This document shows, one piece after another, positions 1-15,908 of a stretch of DNA of 64,000 bases. The translations under genes and the position numbers were made by a program. Location: positions 310,001 to 374,000 of the forward strand of contig NZ_CP021731.1 in assembly GCF_003628555.1 (NCBI RefSeq). Reading direction: 5' to 3'. Every line of letters begins with the position of its first letter. Within the stretch, counting starts at the first letter, position 1. A model generated the notes under the pieces. That model saw only the letters and a program-made list of their open reading frames with translations, was not told the origin of the DNA and searched no databases. Source of the DNA: Azoarcus sp. DN11 (GTDB lineage Bacteria > Pseudomonadota > Gammaproteobacteria > Burkholderiales > Rhodocyclaceae).

Positions 1-309
1 GGCGAGGACCTGGTGAAAGGCGGTCAGCGCGTATTCGTACTGGCGCATGTGGAGCATTGCGACGCCCTGTTCGAACCGCGCCCTCACCGCCTTCCGCGTC
101 GCTGCCAGGGACTCGCCGGGCTTGAGCGTGAATACGTCCGCGAAGGTGAGCCGCGGAGGCGGCTTGAGGTTGCCCCGTTGCGGCCCCAAAGCGAGCAATC
201 CCCCGAGCGCCAGCGTGGCGAGAACCGTGATGGCTATCGCGCGGCGGCGAACGTCGCGGCGGCTGCGGGGGAGTTTTGCGGGGAGATCGGGCTTGAGGCT
301 GCCTGGCAT
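1..309 (-). CDS. TPR-like membrane-anchored protein, C-terminus outside window
   Basis: This is a partial gene: only the first 103 codons lie in the window. From the ATG at 309 the product has a basic, Arg-rich cytoplasmic start, one hydrophobic helix at about residues 25-42, and then a soluble helical part. The last visible segment (...FEQGVAMLHMRQYEYALTAF) reads like the first helix pair of a tetratricopeptide repeat. The ATG lies inside the end of the preceding gene, a 76-nt overlap. That overlap is long, but a later start would lose the membrane helix. As the last visible gene of the cytochrome operon, it may be a scaffold for assembly of the electron-transfer complex. That role is inferred from context only. 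Confidence 0.55.
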   Translation of the reverse strand, partial: MPGSLKPDLPAKLPRSRRDVRRRAIAITVLATLALGGLLALGPQRGNLKPPPRLTFADVFTLKPGESLAATRKAVRARFEQGVAMLHMRQYEYALTAFHQVLA

Positions 310-1550
310 AGATTGACAATCCGGGGTACGGCGATGAATGCGAAGTATGCGACGCCGACGATCGTGATGGTGCCGCCCAAGCCGGTCAGAGCGGCCGCGA
401 TGATCGCGGGAAGTTCGGCCCCGGCCGCGCTGAAGGCCACTTTGCGTGGAGCACCGAGCATGCCGCTCCATGCAAGGCTGCAAATCAGCGTGGTGATGCC
501 GAAGAAGTAGATCGACAACGGCCTGCGGGTCGGTTTAGCGGAGCGTTTTGCGTCCTGGGGCGGCGACAGGCGCGCCAGCACAGCAGCCATTTGCGCCAGC
601 GTGAAGGCGCCGATTGTACCGTGATAATGAGCCGGTATGAGGGTTGTCTGGCTGTCGATGGCGGCGCCGGCAAGAATGCCGATGCAATAGAGCCCGAGCG
701 AGGCGGCAAAGCCATCGGCGCGCCGGGCACCCTTCCGCAGCGCAAGCAACAGGCCGAAGGCGAGCGGCGCAGGCCAGTTCGACCAGCGCATGGCCTGGGT
801 GTGGAGATCGTGCAGGGTGCCGTGATCCACGCCGGCAAGCAGCAGTGTCGGGGCGATGATCGCGGGCAGCGAAGCGAGGGCGAACAGGGGAATTGCAATC
901 GCGGGGGACAGGCCGCCTGCGTCAGCGCGTTCCGACAGCCGCAGCCAGATCGACATCATGAGGGTGACGAATCCGAACTGCAGGATGTGGCCGGCGCCCC
1001 ACAGGGCGTCGATGAGCCGCATCTCCCGATGCCACGCCAGCAGGAGGTAGATCGTCGCCATGAGGAAGGGCAGGCGTGCGATTGCGAAGCCCCATTCGGC
1101 GACATCGCGGGGACGGATCAGCGAAATGCCTGCCGTGCACAGTCCGGCTCCGGCAAAAAGGGCGAGCGATGCGAGAAACAGCGGGTGATCGAGATAAGGG
1201 ACGTAATTCGCGAGGACCGGATTGCCCGGGGCAAGGAGGCCGGCTGCGATGACGCCGAGCGCCCCGGCGGCCCCGACGAGCTGCAGCGTGCCTGCAAGGC
1301 GTTGACGGCGTGCGCCCAGCGTTTCGGTCCACAGCGCCGCCGCCATCGCGAAATACCACAGCAGGGTGGCGAGATTGACGTGCACCACGAGCGCGCGCGG
1401 AAAGCTGTCCGGCGGCACGAGGGACGTCAGGATGGGTGTGCGGGCGAGGACGAGGGCGGTGGCGGCAACCGCGGACAGGCCGAGCGATGATGCGGCGACC
1501 AGCAGCCAGCGGTGAGAGACGGCGGGCAGCGTACGCATTACGTGCGTCAT
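234..1550 (-). CDS. Heme-copper oxidase subunit I-like integral membrane protein
   Basis: The 438-residue product is almost entirely transmembrane helices, about twelve. Histidines sit where heme-copper oxidase subunit I proteins place metal ligands: H57 in an early helix (VVHVNL), H188 (WGAGHIL), and an A-H-Y-H pair at H308/H310 that resembles the AHFH heme-ligand motif of the superfamily. The usual loop signatures of a proton-pumping oxidase are weak, so this is a divergent member and may only carry b-type heme. Its ATG at 1550 overlaps the ccsA-like stop (TGATG), so the two are probably translationally coupled. In this operon it could pass electrons between the quinone pool and the periplasmic cytochromes. 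That is inference. Confidence 0.6.
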   Translation of the reverse strand: MTHVMRTLPAVSHRWLLVAASSLGLSAVAATALVLARTPILTSLVPPDSFPRALVVHVNLATLLWYFAMAAALWTETLGARRQRLAGTLQLVGAAGALGVIAAGLLAPGNPVLANYVPYLDHPLFLASLALFAGAGLCTAGISLIRPRDVAEWGFAIARLPFLMATIYLLLAWHREMRLIDALWGAGHILQFGFVTLMMSIWLRLSERADAGGLSPAIAIPLFALASLPAIIAPTLLLAGVDHGTLHDLHTQAMRWSNWPAPLAFGLLLALRKGARRADGFAASLGLYCIGILAGAAIDSQTTLIPAHYHGTIGAFTLAQMAAVLARLSPPQDAKRSAKPTRRPLSIYFFGITTLICSLAWSGMLGAPRKVAFSAAGAELPAIIAAALTGLGGTITIVGVAYFAFIAVPRIVNLCQAASSPISPQNSPAAAATFAAAR

Positions 1551-2362: not shown

Positions 2363-2363
2363 A

Positions 2364-3422
2364 CTATGCGTCCCACGGCCTCGCCGTGAATTTTGTCCAG
2401 AAATGTGCAGCCAGACTCACGACCGCGACCGTACACGCGGCAAGGAGCCAGGGCAGGGTCCAGTCGTAGAACACGCGATAGCCCATCCAGTTGCGCAGGC
2501 CCTCGAATTCGAGCGTGCCATCGGGAGTCTGCAATGAATCGCCCGGATGCATTTCGTGGCGTTCGCGCCCGATCCGGACGACAAGCTTATAGTGTTCCGG
2601 AAGGTGGAACGACGTGTGTTCGGCGGGATCAAGAATGATTTCGTCAATGTCGAGCAGCACCCAGATCGGGAGCGCGCTGCCGGGAGGGCTCCATTCCGCG
2701 GCCTGGCTGTATTCCTTCATTGGGTAGGGAGGAAGCTGCACGGACCCGCGGACCACGTTGCCCTGATTGTCCCGCCACCGGAACGTGGGGGCAAAGCCCT
2801 TGTTGAACGTGGTGTAGAAGCGGTAGCCGGAAACGATCAGGGGCTTCTGGTCGCCGATGATTTCGTCGTGCCAGCGGCCGTCCGGGCCTTGCCAGGCGAC
2901 CTGATTGCGCGTGGCCTCGCGCTGCAGGCCGGGGGCGTAGTCGATGTGGAAACCCTTGTTTACGAAGTGCACGCTCGAAAGCGCACCGGCGTGCAGCGGA
3001 CCCCGGTCGACTCCCGACAGCTCGCCGTTGAAGGGCACGCCCTCGGTAACGCCGACATGGGCATTCAGGTAGGTAAGGCGTCCCGCCGCGACCAGCAAGA
3101 GCAGCACGACCAAGGCGAGGTGAAAGACGAGCAGCGCGGTCTGGCGCCGGAACACGCCGTTGCTCATCACGGCGGCCATCAGGTTGATCGCCAGCAAGAC
3201 GAGCGGCACCACCAGGGGCCAGGTTCGCGCGCCTTCCCGGAGGTAGGCGAACGCGACGCCGCCGCCCAGAAGGACGATCAGTGCGAGGGTCAGCCGGAGC
3301 GAAGCAAGGCGGCGTACCAGTCTCCCGCCCGCGGAGCTTCGTTCGGTCGGATCGCTGCTGTCCGTTCGCGCCTGCCCGGAGGCCGCTTGCGCCAGTCCGT
3401 TCCGCTTCACGGCGCCATCCAT
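2364..3422 (-). CDS. ResB/Ccs1-like cytochrome c biogenesis protein
   Basis: This is the partner of the downstream CcsA-like protein in System II cytochrome c maturation. The product (about 352 residues from the ATG at 3422) has the ResB layout: two N-terminal transmembrane hairpin helices (LRLTLALIVLLGGG, and the PLVVPLVLLAINL region), a third helix with a histidine (TALLVFHLALVVLLLL), a long periplasmic beta-rich domain, and a last helix near the C-terminus (LPWLLAACTVAVVSLAAHFW). The frame stays open to a TTG at 3470 that would overlap the upstream NHL gene. The ATG at 3422 lies 20 nt after that gene's stop, with GGA about 8 nt upstream, and is preferred. It is somewhat short for the family. 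Confidence 0.85.
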   Translation of the reverse strand: MDGAVKRNGLAQAASGQARTDSSDPTERSSAGGRLVRRLASLRLTLALIVLLGGGVAFAYLREGARTWPLVVPLVLLAINLMAAVMSNGVFRRQTALLVFHLALVVLLLLVAAGRLTYLNAHVGVTEGVPFNGELSGVDRGPLHAGALSSVHFVNKGFHIDYAPGLQREATRNQVAWQGPDGRWHDEIIGDQKPLIVSGYRFYTTFNKGFAPTFRWRDNQGNVVRGSVQLPPYPMKEYSQAAEWSPPGSALPIWVLLDIDEIILDPAEHTSFHLPEHYKLVVRIGRERHEMHPGDSLQTPDGTLEFEGLRNWMGYRVFYDWTLPWLLAACTVAVVSLAAHFWTKFTARPWDA

Positions 3423-3441
3423 CGTGCCGTCCGTACTGCCA

Positions 3442-4542
3442 TCATTCCGCGTCGGCCTTCGCTCCACCAAGGTACTGGAAGATCGTCACGCGGCCGTTGA
3501 ACGTATCGGCAACGAACACGCGATCGAAGGAATCGACCCAGACCCCTGCCGGGAGATAAAAGTTGCCCGTCCCCTGACCGACGCCGCCGATAGGCATCAG
3601 GAACTCCCCGGCCTCGTTGAAAACCAGCAAATTATCGTAATAGGACTCGACGATGTAGATGTTGTTTTCGCTATCGACGGCGACGCCCTTGGGTCGAACC
3701 AGGTTGCCGTAATAAAGACCGCGCCGCCCGATGATCTGCGGTTTGGCGTCACCTTCGAGCGGGATCACCTGCACGCGGTTGTTCATCGTGTCCGTCACGT
3801 AAAGCTTGCCGTGCGCGAGTGCGATGTGGGTTGGGAAATTGAACTCGCCGGGCCCCTCCCCGCGTTCGCCGATGACCTTTTCCAGCCGGCCGTCGCTGCC
3901 GAAGACCTTGATGTCGTGGGCGTAGGTGTCGGCGACGTACAGCAGGCCGGTCGCCGGGTCACGTGCGATTCCCGTGGGGCGCTGCAAAACGCCCGCACCA
4001 ATGGGCGTCAGCGGGTTTCCCTGCGCATCGAGATGCGCAACGATCTGCAACTCCGAATCCGTAACCCAGACGCCGCCGCCTTCGGCGAGTGCGACGCCGA
4101 TCGGGGAGACGAAACGCCGCAAGCCCACGGCGAACTCCCAGACCTTGAGTTCTCCGGCAGGTTTGTCAAAGACAAAGACGGCGGCGCGACTCACGTCGGT
4201 GACGAAGATCCGTTCGCGTTCATCCACTACCACGGCCTGAGGCCTCTGCAGGACGTTCGGCTTTTCCTCCTCCATCAGGCCGACCACCCAGGCGAAAAAC
4301 TGCGCGACCCCTTTCGATTCGCCCTCGCGGACGAAATTCTCCTCGCCGGTGAGCTGGCCGGCGAACTGGTAGCGCGGGACGTCCGGTTCGGCCGGCCACA
4401 TGAGCCGCTTGCCCTCGGGGGCATCGAGCAGCCCGTAATGGAGGCGCGCAGGTGTGGACTGCGTCGCGCAGCCCGTCAGCGCGGCGGCAAGCGCAAGAAT
4501 CAGCCATGGGAGAGCGGACGACACGGTGGGTTTCACGCTCAT
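3442..4542 (-). CDS. NHL-repeat beta-propeller lipoprotein
   Basis: The 366-residue product has a lipoprotein signal peptide with a clear lipobox (L-T-G-C, cysteine at about residue 25). It should therefore be lipid-anchored in the periplasm or outer membrane. The rest consists of about six NHL repeats, recognisable by phrases such as RPQAVVVDERERIFVTD, RPTGIARD...LYVADT, FPTHIALAHGKLYVTDT and RPKGVAVDSENNIYIVE. These fold as a beta-propeller and typically act as protein-binding platforms. Its ATG overlaps the stop of the upstream NHL gene (ATGA at 4542-4539). NHL proteins are regular companions of exported multiheme cytochromes, so a role in assembly or tethering is plausible but not shown. 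Confidence 0.85.
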   Translation of the reverse strand: MSVKPTVSSALPWLILALAAALTGCATQSTPARLHYGLLDAPEGKRLMWPAEPDVPRYQFAGQLTGEENFVREGESKGVAQFFAWVVGLMEEEKPNVLQRPQAVVVDERERIFVTDVSRAAVFVFDKPAGELKVWEFAVGLRRFVSPIGVALAEGGGVWVTDSELQIVAHLDAQGNPLTPIGAGVLQRPTGIARDPATGLLYVADTYAHDIKVFGSDGRLEKVIGERGEGPGEFNFPTHIALAHGKLYVTDTMNNRVQVIPLEGDAKPQIIGRRGLYYGNLVRPKGVAVDSENNIYIVESYYDNLLVFNEAGEFLMPIGGVGQGTGNFYLPAGVWVDSFDRVFVADTFNGRVTIFQYLGGAKADAE

Positions 4543-5480
4543 CTCCGTGAGGGCGGGGTGATGCCGAAAATTCCGATCCGGCCGGCCGGGCCATCGGCGA
4601 TGTATGCGGTATGGAGGTCGATCGAGATCGCCGTAACGTCGACGAGACCGAGCTGCGGGGGCTGCAGTGCGGCGACCAGCCTGCCCTGATCGAAGATCTT
4701 GAGACGCCGGTCGCCCCGGTCAACCACCCACGTGCGGCCGGCGGCATCGAGTGCAAGGTCCGCCGGGTTCAGCAGTTCGCCTTCTCCGTACTTGCCGATG
4801 ACCGCGCCCTCGCGGTCGAAATCGATCAGGCAGCGGCAGCGCGGATCGAATCCGGTGACGCGCTCGCGGCTGGCGGCGAGCAGCGTTGCGCCGCCGAACT
4901 CGTCCGAAAAACCGTCGCCGCGTCCTACGAGAGGCTCGCTTTTTCGTCCGGACGGGTGGAAGGCAAAGACGCCTCCCGCCGCATCCGATATCCACGGCCG
5001 GTTGAGCGTGGGTTCGATGACGATGTCGGCGGGCTGAAGGATTTCGAACTTTGCGCTGAAAGTGGCGATCGGGCGCCCGTCGCGCGCGAGGCGAGCCACC
5101 TCTCCACGATCCGGGCGGACCACGTAGACGCTGCCGTCGGCACCAGCCTTGATGCGCACTCCGGGCAAGGGAGGTATTTCGCGCAGCGGCGTGACCGATT
5201 GACTGACCGTATCGAAATGCAGGAGCAAGCGCTGGCCGCTGTCGGCAACGTAGAGGTCGGGACCGTTGGCGGCCAGGGCCGACGGGTGAAGGAGCTTGAG
5301 ATAGGCGCCGGTAGGGGGGCGCCCGGGGACCGGCGAGGCCGGCGCCGAAAAGCCGCCGACAATCATCCCCTGGGGCGAAAGAAAGGCGTTCGCCCGTTCG
5401 AGCGGCTCCGTATCGAGGCCGGCTGCGCCCGCAAGCAGGGCCCACGCGAGGAGCACACAGCCGGCTAGGTTACGCCACAT
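4539..5480 (-). CDS. Secreted NHL-type beta-propeller protein
   Basis: The gene encodes a 313-residue protein from the ATG at 5480. The longer open frame upstream reads into the neighbouring cytochrome gene. A Sec signal peptide (MWRNLAGCVLLAWALLAGAAG) precedes a domain of repeated blades: HPSALAANGPDLYVADSGQ, QPADIVIEPTLNRPWISDA, NPADLALDAAGRTWVVDRG and VTAISIDLHTAYIADGPAG. The repeat pattern matches NHL/SMP-30-like propellers. There is no lipobox, so it is predicted soluble in the periplasm, unlike the lipoprotein encoded next. Spacing is 7 nt from the triheme cytochrome gene and a 4-nt overlap with the next NHL gene. A CRC motif near residue 225 could form a disulfide. Confidence 0.75.
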   Translation of the reverse strand: MWRNLAGCVLLAWALLAGAAGLDTEPLERANAFLSPQGMIVGGFSAPASPVPGRPPTGAYLKLLHPSALAANGPDLYVADSGQRLLLHFDTVSQSVTPLREIPPLPGVRIKAGADGSVYVVRPDRGEVARLARDGRPIATFSAKFEILQPADIVIEPTLNRPWISDAAGGVFAFHPSGRKSEPLVGRGDGFSDEFGGATLLAASRERVTGFDPRCRCLIDFDREGAVIGKYGEGELLNPADLALDAAGRTWVVDRGDRRLKIFDQGRLVAALQPPQLGLVDVTAISIDLHTAYIADGPAGRIGIFGITPPSRR

Positions 5481-5487: not shown

Positions 5488-5883
5488 TCACCAACGTCCA
5501 GGTCCGAGTGTCTCGTGGCCACCAAAAATACCGGGGGGCAGGCCCGCCTTGCCGGAATGGCACAAGTCGCAGTTCTCGACCGACCACGCAGTTTCTCCGT
5601 CATGACAGGCACCGCAGAAGCGGCCATCGATGATGTCGGTCATCTTGATCTGATTCGCGCCCGCCCGCATCTTGAAACCGAGTTCCGCGTGGCACACCTT
5701 GCAGCGGAACCGGATACGGTGGAACCAGTGGGGAAAGACGACCGGCCGCATGCCGGCCGCTTCCGCCACGCGATTGATGACGACATCAGCATACTCCGCC
5801 ATGGCGTGCGGCGCTGTAAAAAATAGCGACATGCACACCAGTGCAGCATAGGCGATCCGCCGCGAGGTCTGTCGAGCAATCAT
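5488..5883 (-). CDS. Triheme c7-type cytochrome (small)
   Basis: The gene encodes 131 residues from the ATG at 5883, which overlaps the previous stop as ATGA. A signal peptide ending near AMA is followed by three CXXCH heme sites (CKVCH, CGACH, CDLCH). The residues around them (FPHWFH before heme 1, then FKMRAGANQIKM and GRFCGACHDG) fit the c(7)-type triheme cytochrome domain, in which all hemes are bis-histidine ligated. As I recall, the corresponding TIGRFAM model carries the label nanowire_3heme. The protein would be a periplasmic electron carrier feeding the beta-barrel or outer-surface cytochromes. The open frame continues about 75 codons upstream inside its neighbour but has no signal peptide there. 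Confidence 0.85.
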   Translation of the reverse strand: MIARQTSRRIAYAALVCMSLFFTAPHAMAEYADVVINRVAEAAGMRPVVFPHWFHRIRFRCKVCHAELGFKMRAGANQIKMTDIIDGRFCGACHDGETAWSVENCDLCHSGKAGLPPGIFGGHETLGPGRW

Positions 5884-6575
5884 TTGGACTTGCCCCCGGC
5901 CTTGTGGGCAGGCGCGTGCGCTTCTGGCGCCGGAGTCGCCGGGGGCGCCGGCGTCGGTTTTTCCGCGGGAGCGGGAGGCGGTGCGGCGGCTTTGGTGGCG
6001 GCTTTTGCAGCGGCTTCGCGTTCGAGTTCGGCTAGCGCGTCGGCGCGCTTCACGCTGTGACAGCGGGCGCACTCGGTCAGGGGAAAGGCCACGGCCCCGT
6101 GGCACACACCGCATTGCTCACCCTGCAGGATCAGGAACATGCTGATCTTCGACGCACCCCTTTCCTTTTTGAACAACTGGTCGTGGCAATTGGTGCAGTC
6201 CAGCCACTCGTTGTGGATGCTGTGAGGAAAGCGTACGACCGGCATCCCCCCATTGAGGTTCAACAGCACGTCCTTATCGTAACTTTCGCTTTTCAACGGT
6301 TTGCGCAGGCTTGACCGCGGATTGATCTGTCCTTCCCGCAAGGCGCGGACCCAGCGGACCTGGTTTCCCGCGGTATCCGGCTCGAGAGGGGTCAGCGCAT
6401 CCGCAGGTTGCTGCAACACCTTCACGGCCGGGCCGTTGGGATCACGCAGCCCGTCCTTGGCGATCGGGAGCCAGGAACGGTCGTCCGCGATTGCAGGCTG
6501 CATGGCGGCCGCCACGAGGAGCCACAGGCAGCAGGCGAACGGTCCCAGAAAAGTACATCGTAGGCGGAAGGACAT
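5880..6575 (-). CDS. Triheme c7-type cytochrome with Ala/Pro-rich tail
   Basis: The 231-residue product starts at the ATG at 6575, followed by a signal peptide ending near AIADD. Three CXXCH motifs (CTNCH, CGVCH, CARCH) sit in a c7-like domain at about residues 95-160 (FPHSIH, then KISMFLILQGEQCGVCH). It is a paralogue of the smaller triheme protein encoded immediately downstream. The last 60 or so residues are Ala, Pro, Lys and Glu only and look disordered. Such a tail may span the periplasm or contact the cell wall or barrel. About 65 residues between signal and first heme site (e.g. RWVRALREGQINPR) match nothing I recognise. It is the first gene after the outer-membrane barrel, with a 108-nt gap. 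Confidence 0.8.
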   Translation of the reverse strand: MSFRLRCTFLGPFACCLWLLVAAAMQPAIADDRSWLPIAKDGLRDPNGPAVKVLQQPADALTPLEPDTAGNQVRWVRALREGQINPRSSLRKPLKSESYDKDVLLNLNGGMPVVRFPHSIHNEWLDCTNCHDQLFKKERGASKISMFLILQGEQCGVCHGAVAFPLTECARCHSVKRADALAELEREAAAKAATKAAAPPPAPAEKPTPAPPATPAPEAHAPAHKAGGKSK

Positions 6576-6683: not shown

Positions 6684-9173
6684 TCAGAACGAGCCGAACT
6701 CCCGGATCACCCGGAAGAAAAGCAACTGGTTGCGCTCGCCCCTGATCTCGGCGATGCGGTACTGCAGTTCGGTATCGAGGCGGCCGATCCGATAGAGCAG
6801 GCGTTGGTCGAGATCCAGGGTTGCGCGGTCCTGCTCGCGCAGGGCGTCGGGGTTGCCGAAGCGCCGCGAGTCATCGCGGTTCGTATTGGCGCGGAAATCG
6901 AGCCGGTAGCGCAGGCCCCGGATACCCGCAAATCGACGGTGGCTGTAGCCCACGCCGCCGGAGAGACTCGTGTTGCCGGTGCGCGACGTGTCGTCACGGA
7001 ACACCGGGCGTCCGAACTGGTCGATGAGGACCACCGGTTGGTTGATCCTGTCGGACTGCTGACGCGACCACTGCCAGGTGAGGTTCGAGTCGAGTTCCGA
7101 GTTCGCGTCGACGCGCCAATTCCCGGTAAGCTGGACATTGAACAACTGGAAGGAGGATGTGGCGTCCCCCCTTGTACGGCTGTCCGAGAAGCTCGTACTG
7201 AGATAGCCGGTGAGCCGGTCTCCTGCATTGGCCTGCATGCTGAGGCTCGCCCCGTGGTTGAGCGTGGTCGTGCTCGCCGATCCCAGGCCGGTCGTGCGGG
7301 AATTCGTGACCGACTGAGTGACACTGCCGCTGAGCAATGACTGGTCACTGATCTGCCAGCTCCGTACCAGGCTATGCCCGAGCGACCCGTTTATCGAACG
7401 GGAGGTAATGCCTTTGGCCGCGGTCGAGTTCGTCGCCGATGCAGAGGTGAACCACGTGTAGTCGTAGCCGCCCAGGTGCCGCGGGTCGCCGCTATAGCTC
7501 ACGCCCAGCGCCTGGTTCGAATTCACCCGTCTGTCGCTGTCGACGTTGATGCCGGCAGTCCCGAAAAAGCTCAGGTTGCGGCTGGCCTGGTAGGTCAGGT
7601 TTGCCGCGCCGCCCAGGGTCCGGCTCTCGAAGGTCGTTCCGGCGATCGTGTTGTTCGTCTCGAAATAGCGAAGATTCGCCGAGCCGCGCCACTTGGAATC
7701 CATCGGGGTCCAGTTCGCATAACTGAAGACCTGGGTGCTTTGGGTCTTCGCAGTGGTGCTGTCTTCACTGCCAATGCCGAACTGCTGGCCGGTAATACTG
7801 GCGTTCGTGTTAAGGGAGAGTTCATCGCTGAAGCTGAACCCGTGTCCACCGCCGAGATAGTAACTTCTCGACGACTGACCGTCCGCGCGGCTCCTCGTGA
7901 AATCTCCGGAAAGGTTGACGGAGTGTTTTCCCAGTACGTTCGAGTAGTTGCCGAAGACGCGGTCCACGGTGTCCGAACCGAACGTTCCGGTGAGTTCACT
8001 GCGATCGTAGCCGGCTGCGGCTGTCCATTGCCCGATCTGTGGGCGGTAGTCCTGCCGCAGCGACAGGCGCCTTTGCTCGATGTTCGAGGTGGAGAACGAG
8101 CCGTTGCTGCGGCTGTCCGACAGGGCCAGCGAAGCCGTGAAGGGAAAACGACTCTGTGGAAACAGATTGAGCGTGCCGCTGCCGGTTACCGAGGTGCCGG
8201 CCAGGTTGCTCGACGCGGCGTCCCCTGAATCCTGGGAACGGATGGCGGTGAGTGCAAAATCGCCTGAAACGAGCGCGATATATGGTTTCCAGATGTAGGA
8301 GTTTGCACGGAGGCGTGCTTCGTAGATCTCGCTTGTCGTGCTGGTCGAGTTTTCCGAGGTGCTGCGCCGGAGGCCCGCCGAGAGTGTTCCTCCCCACCGC
8401 ACCGGCGCCATGCCCCAACGTTTCCGAGGTGTAGTGGCCTGATCCGCCGCCGCGGAACCCTTGTTTCGCGAGGGGACAGGGAGATCTGCCACAGCAGGTT
8501 CGGCGTCCAGTTCGTCGGCGGGCCGGAAATCCCCGTCTCCGACGACTTTGGCATCCGAACCACGGGGCGCCGCCGATTCTGCGGTTTCGGCTGCGGCTAG
8601 CACGGGCGCGGCCGGCGTCCGGGATGTTTCGGTGTCGCGCTTGGTCTTGCCCGATTTATCATCGGCAGGATCCTGTGCGTCCGATTTCACGCTCGTCGAA
8701 CGCCGGGCGGGAATGGGGGCCGCGTCCCCCCTCGACGGTTTATCGCCGGGTTTCGGTTGCTGGGGAGGGCGCGTGCCCTCGGGCGGACCGCCGCTCGAGG
8801 GTGGCACGACAGTCTGGGCCGCCGGTTGTGCGGCGGGCCCTTCGGGTAGCTGGTATGTCCACTCGAGAGCGAGGGGCGCGGGCTCCGTCGCCGGGCTGGC
8901 CATCTCCGCGGTGCCGGCCGTCGCCGGCGGGGCATCGGGGGCCGGCTGGCGCTCCTGTCGCAGGCTTTCGAGAATCGTTGCAAGTCGCAGACGAGGCTGC
9001 GCGGGGGGCTCTGCCGCTTGCGAAACGGATGCGGCGAAAGCCGGAACTGCGGTCAAGCCGAGAAGTACCCCCCCGCAGACAGGCGAAATGCGTCCGCGGC
9101 AGACCGATGACGCCGTGTCAAAGGTGCCGCGGTACGTGGACGCGATGTTCCGGGCGAGTATGAAGCGCAACAT
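6684..9173 (-). CDS. Large outer-membrane beta-barrel protein of the cytochrome locus
   Basis: The gene encodes 829 residues from the ATG at 9173, 11 nt after the PpiC-gene stop. The product has three parts: a long signal region; about 200 residues of Pro/Ala/Ser/Lys-rich, probably disordered sequence; and from about residue 250 to the end, alternating amphipathic strands rich in Ser, Thr, Asn, Tyr and Arg. It ends in phenylalanine (...REFGSF), the usual mark of BamA-dependent barrels. Size and location next to periplasmic triheme cytochromes suggest an MtrB/PioB-like sheath through which cytochromes cross the outer membrane. I do not see the N-terminal CXXC of many MtrB proteins, so this may be a different barrel family. 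Role inferred. Confidence 0.7.
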   Translation of the reverse strand: MLRFILARNIASTYRGTFDTASSVCRGRISPVCGGVLLGLTAVPAFAASVSQAAEPPAQPRLRLATILESLRQERQPAPDAPPATAGTAEMASPATEPAPLALEWTYQLPEGPAAQPAAQTVVPPSSGGPPEGTRPPQQPKPGDKPSRGDAAPIPARRSTSVKSDAQDPADDKSGKTKRDTETSRTPAAPVLAAAETAESAAPRGSDAKVVGDGDFRPADELDAEPAVADLPVPSRNKGSAAADQATTPRKRWGMAPVRWGGTLSAGLRRSTSENSTSTTSEIYEARLRANSYIWKPYIALVSGDFALTAIRSQDSGDAASSNLAGTSVTGSGTLNLFPQSRFPFTASLALSDSRSNGSFSTSNIEQRRLSLRQDYRPQIGQWTAAAGYDRSELTGTFGSDTVDRVFGNYSNVLGKHSVNLSGDFTRSRADGQSSRSYYLGGGHGFSFSDELSLNTNASITGQQFGIGSEDSTTAKTQSTQVFSYANWTPMDSKWRGSANLRYFETNNTIAGTTFESRTLGGAANLTYQASRNLSFFGTAGINVDSDRRVNSNQALGVSYSGDPRHLGGYDYTWFTSASATNSTAAKGITSRSINGSLGHSLVRSWQISDQSLLSGSVTQSVTNSRTTGLGSASTTTLNHGASLSMQANAGDRLTGYLSTSFSDSRTRGDATSSFQLFNVQLTGNWRVDANSELDSNLTWQWSRQQSDRINQPVVLIDQFGRPVFRDDTSRTGNTSLSGGVGYSHRRFAGIRGLRYRLDFRANTNRDDSRRFGNPDALREQDRATLDLDQRLLYRIGRLDTELQYRIAEIRGERNQLLFFRVIREFGSF

Positions 9174-9183: not shown

Positions 9184-10239
9184 CTATTTCGGGGCCGGAC
9201 TCTTCTTGGCAAGAGCGGGGTAACGCTGCGTGTTCATCTCGAGCTTGGCCTTCTTCCGTAGCTGGTCCTTCAGATTCCGCCAAGCTTCGTCGCCCAGGTC
9301 GCGCATCAGCAGATCGGTGGCCCGCGGTTTCACGGACTCAAAGTCGTGATGCTTGGGCGGCTGCAGCGCTTCGTAGCGGAACAATGCGACCCCTTGCAGC
9401 ACTCGGGTGGGGGGGGACAGATCGCCGGGCTTCATGCCGTCGATCTGCCCCTGGATGCCTTCGGGCAACATGCCCCGGTGCATGTAGCCGAGGTCTCCGC
9501 CGTTGGCCGCCGACTCGTGGTTCGAGCGTTCTCGAGCCAGCTGTGCGAAGTCGGCGCCGCTTTCGTTGAGTTTGAGCCGCAGCGCGCCGGCCTCGGTCTC
9601 CGCGGCATCCCATGCCGACGTGGGTGCCGAAGGATCGACACGAAGCAGAAGAAGCGAAATGCGCATCTTCTCGGGTTCGGTGAACTTCTCCGGGTGCTTC
9701 TTGTAGTACGCAAGCACCTTGTCCTGCGTCGGCTGCGGGACGTTCCGCGTCGTCGCTTCGAGGGTCGCAAGCATGTCGTCCTCTTCCAGGCGCTGACGCA
9801 AGGGGGGGAGAATCTGCGCACGCTCCTGCTGCCAACGCGCACTCGAGGCGTAGCGCTTTTCGTAGCCTGCGAGTTGCTCATCGACCGCTTTCGTGTTGGG
9901 CTTCATGTCCCGCCGCTTCATCTCCTCGACCAGGAGAATGCGGTCGATCATGCTGTTGGCGACATCCCGAACAACTTGTTCGAGTTCCCCTTCGGGAGGT
10001 GTGCCGTGATAGAACTTCTGGCGGATCGCCTCGCGGGTCGCCGTATCGAATTCGGCGGAACTGATCACCTTGCCGTTGACGACCGCGACGTAAGGCGGCA
10101 CCGCATGCGGGTCCGCGGGCTTTTGTGCCGCAACGGGCGTCGGGGATGCCCCCGCTTTGGGCGCATCCGCTGCATTGACGCCGAAGGCAATGAACATCGG
10201 GGCGAGAGCGCCGGTTACGGCGCGTGCGATCGTTTTCAT
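9184..10239 (-). CDS. PpiC-type (parvulin) periplasmic peptidyl-prolyl isomerase
   Basis: A SurA/PrsA-like foldase. After an N-terminal signal there is a SurA-like chaperone segment (VAVVNGKVISSAEFD, then NSMIDRILLVEEMKRR), followed by a parvulin domain at about residues 185-300 with the family signature (ADFAQLARERSNHESAANGGDLGYM) and a basic C-terminus. Length is about 351 residues from the ATG at 10239. An upstream in-frame TTG at 10266 would add MQPSRRDFL and create a perfect twin-arginine motif (SRRDFLMK); both starts are plausible. It sits between a tetraheme cytochrome gene and the outer-membrane barrel and probably folds the exported cytochromes or barrel. Prolyl isomerases of this type also accompany extracellular cytochrome genes in Geobacter. 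Confidence 0.85.
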   Translation of the reverse strand: MKTIARAVTGALAPMFIAFGVNAADAPKAGASPTPVAAQKPADPHAVPPYVAVVNGKVISSAEFDTATREAIRQKFYHGTPPEGELEQVVRDVANSMIDRILLVEEMKRRDMKPNTKAVDEQLAGYEKRYASSARWQQERAQILPPLRQRLEEDDMLATLEATTRNVPQPTQDKVLAYYKKHPEKFTEPEKMRISLLLLRVDPSAPTSAWDAAETEAGALRLKLNESGADFAQLARERSNHESAANGGDLGYMHRGMLPEGIQGQIDGMKPGDLSPPTRVLQGVALFRYEALQPPKHHDFESVKPRATDLLMRDLGDEAWRNLKDQLRKKAKLEMNTQRYPALAKKSPAPK

Positions 10240-10422: not shown

Positions 10423-11223
10423 TTACTTGACGTGGCAAGACAGGCAGATCTTGCTGCCGGACGTCGTCACGCGCATGAAGTTGACGTCGGAACCCGTAGC
10501 CGCCTTGTCGCTATGCGGGTCGTGGCAGGACGCGCATTCGACGGACGGGCCGGTTTGGGCGCCCGTGAAGGTCCGGGTGTAGAGGATCATGTCGGTCTTC
10601 TCGCGCGTGTTGTTGGCAACGCTGGTATCGACCCAGAAGACCTGCACGCCGTTGATGGTCTTGGTCACCGGCAGCTTGAAGTCCTTGTCGTTACACGTGC
10701 CGTTCACGGTCGTGCCCGTGCCGGTCAGGCCGCCGCCGCAATACTGGATGCCGATCGGGTGGTCGTTGGTCAGGTCCGGCTGCAGGTTTGCCACGCCGGT
10801 GATCTTGTTCGCGCCGGTGGTCCAGGTGTAATTGCGGTTGGAGCCGCCAACCACCAGGCCGCCGGAGCCCGGGGCGTTGACCAGGTTGTCCATCGCCTGG
10901 GTGCCGTCATGGCAGGACAGGCAGGCGGCAGACACCGAGCCGACGGTCAGCACGGCGCCGTCGATCGTGTTCGAGTTGGCCGTCGAGTAGGTTGTGTAGG
11001 TGGTGGGCGGCAGACCCTTGTTCCACAGGGGGGCATTAACGGCCGTGTTCGCGGCGTGCGGCGTATGGCAGAACACGCAGATCTGTTGCGTGGTGCTCTG
11101 CTTGTTCGGGCCCGGCCCGGTTGCCGTCAGGTTGTGCGGCGTGTTCGTGATGCCCGCCGACGCGGTGCCGGCGATCAATGCGATCGATGCGGCTGCGAGC
11201 GACCGGTGGAAGATTTTTTTCAT
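10423..11223 (-). CDS. Tetraheme c-type cytochrome (OmcE-like candidate)
   Basis: The gene encodes 266 residues from the ATG at 11223, preceded by GGGGGTTACC as a ribosome-binding region. A cleavable signal (ends GTASA) leads to a mature N-terminus NTPHNLTATG. Four CXXCH sites follow: CVFCHTPHAAN, CLSCHDG, CASCHDPHS and CLSCHVK (the last four residues but one are heme). Between hemes 2 and 3 there is a DHPIGIQY motif shared with the other two proteins of this type, and two non-heme cysteines that may form a disulfide. Low-charge Thr/Gly/Asn-rich loops dominate. Size, heme number and NHL/PpiC company resemble tetraheme nanowire cytochromes such as OmcE. The terminator behind it suggests separate, strong expression. 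Confidence 0.85.
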   Translation of the reverse strand: MKKIFHRSLAAASIALIAGTASAGITNTPHNLTATGPGPNKQSTTQQICVFCHTPHAANTAVNAPLWNKGLPPTTYTTYSTANSNTIDGAVLTVGSVSAACLSCHDGTQAMDNLVNAPGSGGLVVGGSNRNYTWTTGANKITGVANLQPDLTNDHPIGIQYCGGGLTGTGTTVNGTCNDKDFKLPVTKTINGVQVFWVDTSVANNTREKTDMILYTRTFTGAQTGPSVECASCHDPHSDKAATGSDVNFMRVTTSGSKICLSCHVK

Positions 11224-11514: not shown

Positions 11515-12681
11515 TCAGTGCTTGGAAGCGGCTGCCCGATGGACGAGGAAGCCCTGATCGGCCGGCAGACCGTATGGCCTGAAGACGTCGATCTTGGCGA
11601 ACCACTGGTCGACGAAGTAGACCCGACCGTCTTCATCGACGGCGATGCCCGAAGGCAGGATGTACTGGGCGGGGCCGCCCTGCTCGGAGCGGTTCCCGAC
11701 ATACATCAGCAGCTCGCCCTCGGGGTCGAAGATCTGGAAGTTGCCGAAGGCGGCATCGGCGACGTAGACGTTGCCGTCCTTGTCTGTTGCGATTTCCTTT
11801 GGTCGGGCGAAATTCCCGAGTTGACGACCGACCGAGCCGAAGCTGCCGTGGTAGCTGCCGTCCGCATTGAAGATCTGGACGCGGAAGTTTCCGCCGTCCA
11901 CGACATAGAGGCGCCCGTCCTTGCCGATGGCCATGTCGCGCGGAAGATTGAACTCTCCGGGGCCCGAGCCGCGTTTGCCGATGTCCATGACATGACGGCC
12001 GGTGGCAGTCTCGAAGACGCGGACGCGGTGGTGTTCGGATTTGACGCCGCCGATGTCGACGACGTAGATGCGCTGGCCCGAGGGGTCGACCGTGACGCTG
12101 GAGATACGGTCGAAGAGGTCGTTGCCGCCGATCTTGCGCAGGAACTTCCCGTCGCGGTTGTAGATCATGATCATCTTCAGGGTCGCGTCGGCCACGTACA
12201 GGCGCCCTGCGCGGTCGACGTCGATGCCGAGCGGCTTGACGAGCTGGCCGGGTTCGTCTTCGCCGATCACGAAGTACTTTGCTGCCGCGATGTCGAAGAC
12301 CTTGATGGTCCGGTCTGCCGAGTCGGAAACGAATATCCGGCCGCGATGGACGGCAACGGCATAGGGTTTGGTGAGGAAATAACCTGTGCGCTGGGTTCCG
12401 GTGACGAGGCGCCGGAACGCGTCGTCGCCGGTGTCGATTTCGATGTCCGCCGAACTGGTGATCGTACGTTCGTAGACGAATCGGGGGGTGTCGGGAGGGC
12501 CGGGGAAAACGAGGGGGCCGGTGTTCGCGTGAGTGCTTGGTCCGGTGTCACCCAGCTCGGCGCATCCCGTGACCAAGGCGACGCCGCCTGCGACGACGCA
12601 GGCGAGAAGAAGCGAAATCGCGCGGGAGGCGTGCGAGCCCGTTCGGGGGGCATGGTGGCGAGGGAACAGTTTCATTGGCAT
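11515..12681 (-). CDS. NHL-repeat beta-propeller lipoprotein (second)
   Basis: The 388-residue product has a lipoprotein signal peptide with lipobox V-T-G-C at about residue 40. It is followed by a proline-rich linker and about six NHL blades (TKPYAVAVHRGRIFVSD, VKPLGIDVDRAGRLYVAD, SSVTVDPSGQRIYVVD, NLPRDMAIGKDGRLYVVDGG, RPKEIATDKDGNVYVADA, LPSGIAVDEDGRVYFVD). The blades are closer to textbook NHL repeats than those of the two downstream NHL proteins. The gene lies between two tetraheme cytochrome genes, with 77 nt to the upstream one. Two in-frame ATGs (12681 and 12675) are both usable. A lipid-anchored propeller beside exported cytochromes suggests a secretion or assembly platform. That role is inferred. 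Confidence 0.85.
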   Translation of the reverse strand: MPMKLFPRHHAPRTGSHASRAISLLLACVVAGGVALVTGCAELGDTGPSTHANTGPLVFPGPPDTPRFVYERTITSSADIEIDTGDDAFRRLVTGTQRTGYFLTKPYAVAVHRGRIFVSDSADRTIKVFDIAAAKYFVIGEDEPGQLVKPLGIDVDRAGRLYVADATLKMIMIYNRDGKFLRKIGGNDLFDRISSVTVDPSGQRIYVVDIGGVKSEHHRVRVFETATGRHVMDIGKRGSGPGEFNLPRDMAIGKDGRLYVVDGGNFRVQIFNADGSYHGSFGSVGRQLGNFARPKEIATDKDGNVYVADAAFGNFQIFDPEGELLMYVGNRSEQGGPAQYILPSGIAVDEDGRVYFVDQWFAKIDVFRPYGLPADQGFLVHRAAASKH

Positions 12682-12758: not shown

Positions 12759-13520
12759 CTACTTGACGTGGCACGTCAGGCAGAGGTCACTCGGGTTGTC
12801 TTCGGCGCGGAGGAACAATGGGCGCACGGTATGTGGATCGTGGCAGCTCGCACACTCCACGAACGGGATTTCCATCTGGTCGGCCTGGTCGACGCGCACG
12901 AAAAGGGGGACATCCAGGCGGCCGCGCTGGGCCGAATCCGGATCCTTCGAGACCCACCAGACAGGGCGGTTGTCGACGACCCCGCGTCTGGCCGCGCGGA
13001 AACCGTCGTCGAACTTGAGCTGCTTGGCCGTGTTGATGAGTTTGCCGGCCCGTTGCAGTTCTTCACGGATTCTCTGGCGCTGCTCGGGAGTCAGGGCGCC
13101 GCGATACGGCACGGCGAAAGGGTGGTCGTAGGCCCCGCCGGTGATCCCGAAGGCCTGGGAGGAGTCGTGGCAGGAGAGGCAGGCGATCGACTGCGAGCCG
13201 ACGGCTTCGCTCCCTTCGTTGCCCATGCGTCCGATGTCGTCGAACATGGGAAAGATGCCGCCACCCGGCACTGCGCTCTGCCACCTCGGTTGCGCCGCGT
13301 CGGCCGGGTTGGCATTGGTCGGCGTGTGGCAGAAGACGCAGATCTGGCGGGGGTCGACGCTGCCCTTGCCGTCGGACGGCTGCGTGAGGTTGTGCTTGGT
13401 GTTGCGCATGTCGATCCGCTCCGCGGCCGCCTGATCGCCCCAGAAGAGTGAGCAGGCCACCAGCAGCGTGCCGATCGCTGCGATCAGGCGGGAAGGAGGT
13501 ACGGTGAGCACGCTACGCAA
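12759..13520 (-). CDS. Tetraheme c-type cytochrome (second)
   Basis: The product is about 253 residues. It starts near a signal peptide (hydrophobic LIAAIGTLLVACSLF) that ends before AERID. The mature protein begins with NTKHNLTQ and carries CVFCHTPTNAN, CLSCHDSS, CASCHDPHT and a C-terminal CLTCHVK. It keeps the YDHPFAVPY version of the DHP motif, so it is a clear paralogue of the tetraheme cytochrome at 10423-11223. It has a Lys/Arg-rich insert before heme 3 (EQRQRIREELQRAGK) absent from the other copy. No ATG fits: TTG at 13520 has GCGAG upstream, while TTG 13550 and GTG 13511 are alternatives. Hemes are expected to be bis-His, with a periplasmic or surface location. Confidence 0.8.
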   Translation of the reverse strand: MRSVLTVPPSRLIAAIGTLLVACSLFWGDQAAAERIDMRNTKHNLTQPSDGKGSVDPRQICVFCHTPTNANPADAAQPRWQSAVPGGGIFPMFDDIGRMGNEGSEAVGSQSIACLSCHDSSQAFGITGGAYDHPFAVPYRGALTPEQRQRIREELQRAGKLINTAKQLKFDDGFRAARRGVVDNRPVWWVSKDPDSAQRGRLDVPLFVRVDQADQMEIPFVECASCHDPHTVRPLFLRAEDNPSDLCLTCHVK

Positions 13521-13595
13521 TTGTCGCTCGCAATATCGCCGGATTTCCAAACCGTGGAACGCGTTCTCAAGTTCGGGAGCCGGTCCGCGCCGTGT

Positions 13596-13898
13596 TTATC
13601 GAGACTGCGAAACCATGTATTCGACGGCCGCCTTCACCTGGCTGTCGGAAAGACCTGGGTTGCCCCCCTTCGGTGGCATCCCACCCCTGCCCCGAAGCGC
13701 CGATTGCTGTAACGCGTCGAGCCCTGTGGGCAGGCGTGGCGCCCACGCTTCCCGGTTGCCGAGGATCGGGGCGCCGGCCACGCCCGTCGCATGACAGGCA
13801 CGGCAAATTTGAGTATAAACCGCCTTGCCGTCAGCCGCTGAAACATTGGTTGTCGCGACGAGGAGTACCAAGCCGGCCGTTGCAAGGATAGGTTTCAT
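13596..13898 (-). CDS. Monoheme class-I cytochrome c (c5-like)
   Basis: The 100-residue product has a signal peptide (MKPILATAGLVLLVATTNVSA) and one heme site (CRACH). A methionine sixth ligand sits in the GRGGMPPKGG loop typical of cytochrome c5/c-552-like proteins, and the protein ends in the standard C-terminal helix (DSQVKAAVEYMVSQ). A small soluble His/Met cytochrome of higher potential, it is likely a periplasmic shuttle between inner-membrane donors and the multiheme proteins. It is the first gene of the minus-strand series and is divergent from the diheme cytochrome gene at 14044. Confidence 0.85.
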   Translation of the reverse strand: MKPILATAGLVLLVATTNVSAADGKAVYTQICRACHATGVAGAPILGNREAWAPRLPTGLDALQQSALRGRGGMPPKGGNPGLSDSQVKAAVEYMVSQSR

Positions 13899-13993
13899 TC
13901 TGGTCCCGTCGATGAATCGCAATGCTGATCCGAGGCGTCGCGCGCGGTCGGATCGGTATCCAAGCAATGCACGTGCCACTATCCGGAGCAGGT

Positions 13994-14008: not shown

Positions 14009-14043
14009 ATCAAGGCTGAAGTTTTTCGACCCAGAGGTATCTT

Positions 14044-14910
14044 GTGAATCAGAACAAGCAATTCACGCAGCTCCTGCGCGCGTGTGTCCTGCGCGCGTGT
14101 GCAATGGGTGTCGGTGCGGCGCTGAGCTTCGGCGCGAGCGGCAGCACGATCAAGGCCGACGTGCTCTATCACGAATATTGTTCGGTGTGTCATGGGGACC
14201 GGGGCGACGGCCATTCGCGGGCGATGAAGAGCCTCAACCCGCCGCCTAGGGACCTGACGAAGGCCGGTCCGTCGCTGCCGCGTGACTACATCTTCCACGT
14301 CATCTCCGAAGGGAAGCCGGGTACGGCAATGGTGGGATTCAAGACCCGCCTGAATGATGAGCAGCGCGGGGCATTGGCCGATTATGTGCACACCGAAATC
14401 GTCAATCGCGGCGCGGCCATTTCGGCCGGCCTCGTGAAGGGCATTTCCGGGACTTCGGGGACGACCGGCGGATCGGACTCGCCGACGCCGGCTCCTGCGG
14501 GCAGCGCGGCGCCGGTGCCGCCGATCGCTGCGCCGCTTCCGCCGATCAAGCCGGTGGGGCCTGACGAGCGGGCCGACATGGGAGCGCCGTTCCCGTCCGG
14601 ACTGAAGGGCGATGCGGCCAAGGGGCGGGCGTTCTACGATAAGAATTGCGCGGAATGCCACGGAGCGAAGGGGGACGGCCAGGGGCGGCGTGCCTATTTC
14701 ATTCGCCCGGTGCCGCGGGATTTCCTGCAGGAGCGTTCGCGCCTGACGCTGAACCGCCCGGCGATCTACGCGGCGGTCTTCTTCGGGCGCAACGGGACCG
14801 AGATGCCGGCATGGAGCAAGGTTCTGAGCGAACAGGAAATCGCCAACGTCTCGGAATACGTGTTCCAGAATTTCATCCGTTCCGGTGAGAAGGCTGCCAA
14901 GGCGAAATGA
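14044..14910 (+). CDS. Diheme class-I cytochrome c
   Basis: The 288-residue product starts at GTG 14044, with AGAGG about 9 nt upstream. A signal region (AMGVGAALSFGASG) precedes two cytochrome c domains. Domain 1 has CSVCHGDRGDGHS with Met in KPGTAMVGF. Domain 2 has CAECHGAKGDGQG with Met in GTEMPAW. A Pro/Ser/Gly-rich hinge of about 45 residues joins them. The PPPRDLT and PVPRDFL phrases after each heme recur in the next protein, showing shared ancestry. The gene overlaps the next by 4 nt (ATGA). The pair presumably forms a periplasmic electron-transfer unit; the redox partner is not evident. Confidence 0.85.
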   Translation: MNQNKQFTQLLRACVLRACAMGVGAALSFGASGSTIKADVLYHEYCSVCHGDRGDGHSRAMKSLNPPPRDLTKAGPSLPRDYIFHVISEGKPGTAMVGFKTRLNDEQRGALADYVHTEIVNRGAAISAGLVKGISGTSGTTGGSDSPTPAPAGSAAPVPPIAAPLPPIKPVGPDERADMGAPFPSGLKGDAAKGRAFYDKNCAECHGAKGDGQGRRAYFIRPVPRDFLQERSRLTLNRPAIYAAVFFGRNGTEMPAWSKVLSEQEIANVSEYVFQNFIRSGEKAAKAK

Positions 14911-15908
14911 TCGGACGTATCTGGCTGGGCGGGTTTGCCGCGGCATTGGCCGCGGCCTCGTTCACGGCGCCGGCGTTTGCCGACGCCGGCAGGGACGCCC
15001 GGCACGAGGCCGGGCGCAAGATCTACAACTTTCGTTGCTACTTTTGCCACGGCTATTCCGGGGATGCGAAAACGCTGGCAGCGACGTATCTCGCTCCCAA
15101 GCCGCGCGACTTCACGAAGGACGACGAGAAGTCGATCAGCCGCGAGCGGATGATCACCGCGGTGCGTGACGGAAAGCCGGGCACGGCGATGAAAGGCTTC
15201 AAGGGCATCATCTCCGAGCAGGACATGGAGTCCGTCGTGGATTTCGTGCGTGCCGAGTTCATTCGCGCCAAGGCGGTGAACACGCACTACCACACGCCCG
15301 AGAACGGTTGGTTCAACCACGAGCGGAACAAAGTGGCGTTTCCCTTCGCAACGGGGGCGATTCCGCTCGATCGTCCGTGGGAGAAACTCAGCCCGACCGA
15401 ACAAAAGGGCAAGCGGCTATTCCTGACAACGTGCATTTCCTGCCATGACCACTCGCGGACCGAGGATCCGGGGCCGGCGTGGGGCGGGCGGCCGCTGTCC
15501 TACCCGCGCAACCATTTCGATCCGGGCGATTTCAACGCGCCGCCGCCGACCAAGACCGATGCGATCGCGAGCGCCAGTCCGTATGCTCTGCATGACGTGG
15601 TGCCGCAGGTGTCGGGCCTGACGTCTGGCGAAAAACGCGGGGAGACCCTGTTCCAGGCGAACTGCGCCTTCTGCCACGGCGCGACCGGCACGGGGCGGAA
15701 CTGGATCGGCAGCTTCATGGAGCCGCATCCTCGCGATCTGACCGATCCGAAGTTCATGAAGGACATGACGCGTGGGCGCCTGGCGCATACGATCCGGGAA
15801 GGGCTGCCGAATACGTCGATGCCTGCGTGGAAATCGGTGCTGAAGGACGATGAGATCGACGCGATCGTTTCGTATGTTTCGCGTGTTTTCCATCCGGTGA
15901 AGCCGTAA
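14907..15908 (+). CDS. Triheme class-I cytochrome c
   Basis: The 333-residue product has a Sec signal (ends AFADA) and three CXXCH sites. CYFCHGYSGDAKT lies in domain 1, with KPGTAMKGF as Met loop. CISCHDHS is the central site. CAFCHGATGTGRN lies in domain 3, with LPNTSMPAW as Met loop. Domains 1 and 3 match the two domains of the diheme protein encoded just upstream, including the KPRDFT and HPRDLT phrases. The middle domain is an insertion in which CISCHD follows a long His/Asn-rich linker. Translationally coupled to the diheme gene, it is probably a larger partner in the same complex. Confidence 0.85.
   Translation: MIGRIWLGGFAAALAAASFTAPAFADAGRDARHEAGRKIYNFRCYFCHGYSGDAKTLAATYLAPKPRDFTKDDEKSISRERMITAVRDGKPGTAMKGFKGIISEQDMESVVDFVRAEFIRAKAVNTHYHTPENGWFNHERNKVAFPFATGAIPLDRPWEKLSPTEQKGKRLFLTTCISCHDHSRTEDPGPAWGGRPLSYPRNHFDPGDFNAPPPTKTDAIASASPYALHDVVPQVSGLTSGEKRGETLFQANCAFCHGATGTGRNWIGSFMEPHPRDLTDPKFMKDMTRGRLAHTIREGLPNTSMPAWKSVLKDDEIDAIVSYVSRVFHPVKP

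Follow-up and report, generated by a model that had tools for sequence, protein, structure and literature searches.

A Uet-type cytochrome locus of Azoarcus sp. DN11 with an OmcE-family tetraheme protein and a displaced undecaheme cytochrome

The stretch of DNA analyzed here, referred to as the window, comprises 64,000 nucleotides of Azoarcus sp. DN11 (C1:310001-374000 of a single-contig genome of 4.96 Mb) and carries on its minus strand a row of cytochrome and cytochrome-maturation genes, for which an initial annotation had proposed a role in extracellular electron transfer. That proposal is partly supported, in that the gene set is the one described for the Uet system, which, as printed in excerpts of its description, comprises the undecaheme cytochrome UetJ, the extracellular tetraheme UetA, the trihemes UetDEG, the PpiC protein UetB, the NHL proteins UetHI and the barrel UetC (PMC10734462); an excerpt of a review names the cluster uetABCDEFGHIJ (PMC12575090). 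By its gene content the locus belongs to this kind, with variant features in the form of a relocated UetJ, a heme-ligand-deficient UetA paralogue and a linked block of glycosylation type, and its tetraheme UetA1 ties the Uet pathway of iron oxidizers and biocathode bacteria to the OmcE family of nanowire cytochromes.

The operon starts with a c5-like monoheme cytochrome gene (13596-13898; PF13442, E = 1e-16) and proceeds toward the window start through tetraheme 2 (UetA2, 12759-13511), NHL propeller c (11515-12681; PF01436, E = 5.7e-28), tetraheme 1 (UetA1, 10423-11223), a UetB-like PpiC-type peptidyl-prolyl isomerase (9184-10239; PF00639, E = 1.9e-13), a UetC-like outer-membrane β-barrel candidate (6684-9155), two triheme c7 cytochromes resembling UetD/E/G (5880-6572 and 5488-5865; TIGR04257, E = 7.6e-17 and 1.7e-19), the divergent NHL propeller b (4539-5474; a weak PF01436 match, E = 1.2e-4) and the UetH/I-like NHL propeller a (3442-4542; PF01436, E = 1.6e-29). 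These are followed by ResB (2364-3422; PF05140, E = 4.5e-12) and a CcsA/ResC-type heme-attachment protein (1550-2362; PF01578 Cytochrom_C_asm, E = 1e-28), whose ResB and Cytochrom_C_asm domains, side by side, constitute cytochrome c System II. Family searches bore out the inventory read earlier from the sequence, namely the c7 pair, the tetrahemes, the c5-like protein, the three NHL propellers, PpiC and the System II pair. Missing from it had been two plus-strand cytochrome genes, for a diheme (14044-14910) and a triheme (14907-15908) protein, as well as an 11-heme cytochrome on the minus strand (31533-34100), which by its heme count and neighborhood we take to be the undecaheme UetJ that gives the Uet system its name. 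Throughout the window, the CXXCH-type codon pattern occurs 31 times as compared to 3.1 times expected by shuffling, an approximately tenfold enrichment over chance that none of the 100 shuffles reached.

In the PDB, UetA1 was matched foremost to 7tfs_A, the OmcE filament of Geobacter (E = 7.7e-31; the name OmcE for PDB 7TFS appears in excerpted text of PMC12954529), and to the multiheme chain 9yuq (E = 7.8e-22), which is the sole other distinct sequence at E < 0.01. The third and last match is an antibody chain (E = 0.16), so that up to E = 1 the search brings in no further multiheme protein of the PDB. A profile of 71 UetA1 relatives matched OmcE with E = 2.5e-41, and UetA1 aligns with OmcE in order, in two stretches that account for 224 of its 266 residues. 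The suspected kinship with a nanowire cytochrome is thereby confirmed for tetraheme 1: UetA1 is, as judged from its homology, an OmcE-family protein, which gives the nanowire idea homology support, and it most likely polymerizes into such a filament. The heme ligands were compared in an alignment of 93 OmcE-type domains, composed of 42 UetA1 rows (drawn from the 71 as all 28 loci and 14 of the 43 proteins), 32 N-domains of UetJ, 15 UetA2 sequences, two domains from locus B and one from locus C (further copies in this genome, see below), and an OmcE fragment. All four CXXCH histidines and all four distal histidines are present in the UetA1, locus B, locus C and OmcE sequences, one of the 42 UetA1 rows being without the N-terminal column. 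UetA1 is thus like OmcE of Geobacter sulfurreducens in having its four CXXCH motifs and four distal histidines at matching places; it is unlike OmcE in a longer stretch from the DHP motif to heme 3 and in two cysteines, C162 and C177, which are invariant in the 43 closer relatives, though not among the wider 71. In both OmcE and OmcS, one heme is ligated by a histidine from the adjacent subunit, according to excerpts of PMC9473688, and for OmcE this heme is given as heme 2 in excerpts of PMC12203936.

UetA2, which is 30% identical to UetA1, also has 7tfs (E = 3.4e-14) and 9yuq (E = 1e-10) as its first two PDB matches. It keeps seven of the eight ligand histidines, including three of the four distal ones with the N-terminal one among them, while the distal histidine three residues after heme 1 is replaced in all 15 sequences (its own and 14 orthologues) by T (10), S (3), A (1) or M (1), the motif CHTPH having become CHTPT in the sequence of DN11. 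The view that the second tetraheme is a like-for-like filament subunit is unsupported, a heme ligand having been lost. In a FastTree phylogeny, the UetJ domains (support 0.91) and the UetA2 sequences (1.0) each form a group, with UetA1 and UetA2 placed together weakly (0.52). The composition differs as well, the mean content of serine plus threonine being 12% in UetA2 (10-17%, 15 sequences) versus 21% in the UetA1 relatives (15-26%, 71 sequences). Within the locus itself, the corresponding values are 22% for UetA1, 20-21% for UetJ and 24% for the C-terminal part of UetC, versus 10% for UetA2; three c7 proteins were counted, with 5-8%, and the diheme, the triheme, PpiC and NHL c lie at 9-13%.

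The UetJ candidate contains 11 CXXCH motifs and is built from an OmcE-type tetraheme domain, spanning approximately the first 270 residues, followed by seven more hemes. Its N-terminal part was matched to 7tfs_A with E = 2.3e-25 (residues 47-291 of the frame started at 34157) and is 33% identical to UetA1. The four CXXCH and four distal histidines are all kept in 32 of 32 UetJ N-domains, so that UetJ retains even the histidine that OmcE donates to its neighbor, whichever one that is; we infer from this that the UetJ domain may take part in a filament-type contact. Relatives of UetJ are numerous, with 4055 proteins at E <= 0.001 among 7993 scored candidates, and the 120 that were listed are 787-932 residues long. 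The literature searched yielded no statement of an OmcE-type domain in UetJ or of UetA as an OmcE homologue, although Eddie 2022 (on Uet), Wang 2022 (on OmcE), Baquero 2023 and Szeinbaum 2020, which lie outside that literature, may contain one.

UetA and UetJ also occur together. In an even sampling of the class (274 genomes), UetJ was found in 27 at E <= 1e-60, and each of these 27 has a separate, full-length UetA; conversely, UetA at E <= 1e-70, a limit picked after the list had been seen, occurs in 28 genomes, of which 27 have UetJ, the exception being genome G388 (E = 1.8e-94), in which UetA lies near the contig start. The co-occurrence over the 274 genomes has a Fisher p of 1.7e-36, a value that is uncorrected for relatedness and depends on the UetA limit chosen post hoc. 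The two genes share a contig in 23 genomes, DN11 included, and the starts of 21 pairs are 8.6-11.7 kb apart, the distance being 21 kb in DN11 and 47 kb in one other genome. In a sample of 250 genomes of the order, UetJ was found in eight, the same eight that have a separate OmcE-type protein at E <= 1e-30; in one of this sample, G303, the UetA-type and UetJ genes are 1.76 Mb apart.

The usual organization of Uet loci was read from 79 named loci, which were obtained by a UetJ alignment scan from the best 80 of 560 confirmed places (45-72% identity over the best segment) and in which neighboring genes were sought by tblastn with the window proteins at E <= 1e-6. These loci, none of which is titled Tenderia, belong mostly to beta- and gammaproteobacteria, together with Magnetococcales and one Rhodospirillales metagenome-assembled genome (MAG). 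Their usual gene order is NHL c, UetA1, UetB, UetC, c7, c5 (in some), c7, TPR, c7, c7, then NHL b (in some), NHL a, UetJ, ResB and CcsA, after which some loci carry a heme-copper-oxidase (HCO)-like protein, a histidine kinase, an NtrC-type regulator, a monoheme cytochrome c and regulator propellers. Sphaerotilus mobilis (L047) shows the same order, as does, in part, L045, a MAG of the Gallionellaceae. Sixty loci have 8.5 kb or more of sequence ahead of UetJ; among these, matches were found to PpiC in 47, the barrel in 44, at least three c7 types in 47, NHL a in 50, NHL b in 23, c5 in 28 and UetA1 in 39, the last gene lying near the limit of the flank. ResB was matched somewhere in 71 of the 79 loci and CcsA in 61, and 69 UetJ-ResB neighbor pairs are less than 300 bases apart, so that the System II pair belongs to Uet as a rule and is not peculiar to this genome. 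The HCO-like protein, which follows in 13 of the 61 loci with enough sequence, is for that reason no regular part. Like the Uet systems of Tenderiales, Gallionella and the Leptothrix group, the locus of DN11 has an undecaheme and a tetraheme cytochrome, at least three triheme c7 proteins, PpiC, NHL proteins and a barrel candidate, and a nanowire-type cytochrome combined with a porin-type conduit is no peculiarity of DN11 but the usual Uet layout. The barrel candidate itself has a low-complexity N-terminus, a serine- and threonine-rich C-terminal part of 573 residues, a C-terminal Phe and a place that fits the conserved order; these features and this position are what its label is based on, as it has no Pfam or NCBIfam family at E <= 0.01. 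A count of its amphipathic strands gave too many overlapping peaks for a strand number and was not used.

Unlike in the usual arrangement, UetJ lies approximately 18 kb off the operon in DN11, so that the Uet genes do not form one cluster with it here. This applies to the genus more widely. UetA2 was found at E <= 1e-30 in 15 of 101 relatives, 12 of the 15 being of the same genus (DN11 included in each count), and the surroundings were read in nine of them, eight of the 11 same-genus relatives (all but G003, G011 and G013) and one of another genus (G025). In all nine, NHL a is followed directly by ResB, UetJ no longer being part of the operon there, and in G004, G006 and G016 it lies, within the DNA examined, approximately 20 kb beyond UetA2. 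No c7 was found upstream of UetJ in nine of the 60 loci mentioned above, seven of which are L020-L025 and L027 (Aromatoleum/Azoarcus records and one MAG). As a separate observation, UetJ in DN11 is adjoined by a PAS-GGDEF-hemerythrin protein (34370-35752), likewise in L020-L025, L027 and L093, for which an oxygen- or redox-sensing control through cyclic di-GMP is possible; in L024, L025, L026, L027 and L093 a further UetJ (43-51% identical) with ResB behind it is situated approximately 6 kb downstream of the first.

The diheme cytochrome c (14044-14910; PF13442, E = 6.2e-25) and the triheme cytochrome c with cbb3-III-type domains (14907-15908; PF13442, E = 4.2e-30), which diverge from the operon on the plus strand, are kept in all nine relatives read. 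Beyond them are three genes for multi-pass membrane proteins with TPR families, on the minus strand at 15962-18040, 18055-19644 and 19736-21574 (TMTC1-3; the third with an FHFDDW loop), and a GT2 polyisoprenyl-phosphate glycosyltransferase of the ArnC/DPM-synthase type on the plus strand (21769-22704), matched in the PDB to 9hwj_A (E = 1.2e-19) and to the dolichol monophosphate mannose synthase 5mlz_A (E = 8.3e-11). The three membrane-TPR proteins, for which family and PDB searches yield TPR alone, we take to be TMTC-like and thus putative O-glycosyltransferases; they would go well with the GT2 enzyme as a module for O-glycosylation. All eight same-genus relatives read share the gene order UetA2, c5, diheme, triheme, TMTC1-3, GT2, and G025, of another genus, has no TMTC block. 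Just two of the 79 UetJ loci were matched by TMTC queries, L045 (TMTC3) and L084 (TMTC3 and TMTC1), and a broad link between TMTC and Uet was given up on these counts. In 29 named Uet genomes, counted irrespective of the distance to the Uet cluster, TMTC3 was matched in 17, with the membrane part matched in nine of these. OmcE is extensively glycosylated, as stated in excerpts of PMC9473688; with the TMTC link confined in this way, a direct action of the TMTC/GT2 block on UetA1 is a guess at the level of the genus. The DNA between GT2 and UetJ (22701-31388) holds flippase, methyltransferase and glycosyltransferase genes, the make-up of which varies among the same-genus relatives.

The exact sigma-54 type promoter motif TGGCAC-N5-TTGC occurs once in the window (13964-13978, minus strand), with 80 bases between it and the start of the c5 gene downstream, and with one mismatch it is present at the same distance in all eight same-genus relatives read; in G025 it is found 297 bases upstream of UetA2. 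Allowing one mismatch, three sites were found in the window versus 5.2 expected, that is, the motif is not enriched overall, and none of the three is near UetJ. A second exact site was observed in stretch L006 (10670-10684, minus strand), where it lies inside the 3' part of the NtrC-like gene, ahead of the gene that follows in the row. The locus's own NtrC-type regulator, matched in 20 of the 79 loci, and its histidine kinase, matched in 19, are located beyond the window start, as is a TlpA-like gene, all three being named by reading.

While the locus described in the initial annotation is real, it proved larger than stated: the minus-strand row runs from the c5-like gene past the window start to approximately genome position 297134, some 13 kb further, and is broken there by two plus-strand genes at genome positions 303712-305194. 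This outer part holds two further triheme c7 genes (TIGR04257), a CcmC-like gene (PF01578) and two regulator-propeller proteins (PF07494); four of the five TIGR04257 matches of the genome are in the Uet-type locus, two inside and two outside the window. Still further, at C1 ~283-297 kb (approximately 13-27 kb beyond the window start), genes read as nap-like and ccm-like were noticed, and with the ccm-like genes directly beyond the locus, both cytochrome c maturation systems appear near each other.

Taken together, the locus probably serves this betaproteobacterium in extracellular electron transfer, as a system of the Uet type. In the mechanism proposed here, the c5, diheme and triheme cytochromes and the four triheme c7 proteins, two of them encoded outside the window, would be the periplasmic carriers for electrons of the respiratory chain, which would then cross the outer membrane via the UetC barrel together with UetJ, to go on outside the cell in UetA1, polymerized into a nanowire. 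Folding or secretion may be aided by PpiC and the NHL propellers, ResB and CcsA would attach the hemes, and the sigma-54 promoter, together with the kinase/NtrC pair of the locus, may switch the operon on. UetJ, as the bearer of an OmcE-type domain, would be the likely junction of the membrane conduit and the filament. A more specific version of this mechanism, which we put forward tentatively, regards UetJ as a built-in anchor, the OmcE-type domain of which would be the first link of the UetA1 chain, with the seven-heme part directed to UetC and the c7 pool; since the first filament link would be supplied by UetJ, UetA and UetJ would be expected to travel together across the class. In the same version, the filament would be O-glycosylated in this genus by the TMTC-like and GT2 proteins, and UetA2, with one opened or re-ligated heme, would be a periplasmic protein that loads the conduit. 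Secretion and membrane anchoring of nanowires (OmcS) are called speculative in the excerpted text of a 2025 review (PMC12307469), and a UetJ that is part protomer and part conduit, and is co-resident with a filament-type cytochrome, makes the question of nanowire anchoring testable.

It has to be noted that several results weigh against this interpretation. At the limit of the search itself (E <= 1e-30), an OmcE-type match is present in 33 genomes of the class sample, six of which are without UetJ, namely G423, G430, G457, G461 and G547 (4e-44 to 3e-31) in addition to G388, which means that OmcE-type proteins without this UetJ exist; in G430, G457 and G461 the match is in a frame of 570-588 residues, near the length of the undecaheme cytochrome of locus B. 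The looser limit leaves the dependence of UetJ on UetA untouched, as the 27 of 27 are unchanged, though in G071, of the order sample, UetJ stands beside a merely weaker OmcE-type relative. Further points on this side are the position of UetJ outside the operon, the barrel candidate's want of a family match, the low-confidence structure predictions given below, and a likeness to Tenderia that is one of gene content and not of protein comparison. The ligand-deficient UetA2 and the linked TMTC/glycosyltransferase block are differences from the usual Uet. In addition, a physiological current through cytochrome filaments is disputed, as stated in excerpts of PMC11077965 and PMC13194489.

These points leave some room, if a minor share, for a Uet porin-cytochrome conduit without a filament, in which UetA1 and UetJ would be monomeric surface cytochromes and their likeness to OmcE would reflect ancestry and heme packing. 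Uet is indeed described as a porin-multiheme complex in the excerpts of PMC10734462, the co-occurrence with UetJ is equally expected of a two-protein complex, and structure prediction gave no confident structure for either protein, the AlphaFold2 models having a pLDDT of 58 for UetA1 and 39 for UetJ and the UetA1 model finding no Foldseek match at E <= 0.001. On the other hand, UetA1 is aligned with OmcE in order over most of its length and keeps all eight histidine columns, including the one that is donated to the neighbor in OmcE and that a monomer would presumably not need; its serine- and threonine-rich composition would suit secretion and glycosylation at the cell surface, for a monomer as much as for a filament subunit. 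As to UetA2, we consider it improbable that it forms part of the filament, be it as a second subunit in a co-polymer or as the cap, and prefer to see in it a periplasmic relative: it is homologous to OmcE, is encoded in the same gene row and has three of the four distal histidines, but the distal histidine after heme 1 is gone in all 15 sequences, and its low serine and threonine content gives it the look of a periplasmic protein. The idea of a second, identical subunit was lowered after the ligand table and the composition count.

The direction of electron flow is a separate matter. The genus is known for the anaerobic degradation of aromatics, a metabolism for which disposal of surplus electrons to the outside is as plausible as electron uptake. 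An inward flow, in which iron or cathode oxidation would feed nitrate or oxygen respiration, is compatible with the parts of the proposed mechanism and has in our estimate a substantial chance that falls somewhat short of even. It is favored by the excerpted descriptions of Uet in cathode-oxidizing Tenderiales and iron-oxidizing Gallionella (PMC10734462, PMC12575090), by the discussion of UetJ for Leptothrix in partial text, and by the nap-like and ccm-like genes read beyond the window start.

Among other known systems, the locus resembles the OmcS companion (Osc) operon of Geobacter, in which folding and secretion helpers stand beside a filament cytochrome (PMC13194489, in part), and is unlike it in possessing a barrel candidate, a c7 set and an undecaheme cytochrome. 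OmcS of that operon is a hexaheme protomer without sequence likeness to OmcE, as given in excerpts of PMC9473688. With MtrCAB, MtoAB and other porin-cytochrome conduits it shares a barrel candidate accompanied by periplasmic multiheme proteins; it differs from them in that no decaheme family was found above the cut-off in the ten locus proteins run against NCBIfam (UetJ not among them), and in that the barrel candidate has no Pfam match.

At the downstream end of the row, the membrane protein encoded at 234-1550 on the minus strand had been labeled as resembling heme-copper oxidase subunit I, which we presume from a motif. The residues H57, H188 and H308-Y309-H310 are invariant in seven of seven aligned sequences (its own and six relatives); no Pfam or NCBIfam match was found at E <= 0.01, nor a PDB match to its profile at E <= 1, and the family identity was dropped in favor of a resemblance in histidine pattern, the label being based on sequence features and position as for the barrel. 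The next gene, read as a TPR protein, occupies 1-309 on the minus strand (its label and its start at ~309 being by reading), is cut by the window edge and has its stop at genome position 309680.

Further OmcE-type copies are present elsewhere in the genome. Locus B (C1:728596-735279) encodes a 574-residue undecaheme cytochrome with an OmcE-type N-domain, two NHL proteins, an OmcE-type tetraheme and a 681-residue protein that is barrel-like by position, and so repeats the pairing of an OmcE-domain undecaheme with an OmcE-type tetraheme; an 18-heme protein is encoded beyond it on the other strand. Locus C (C1:3343818-3345725), with no other Uet-like gene in the 20 kb examined, consists of an NHL protein beside a five-heme OmcE-type cytochrome.

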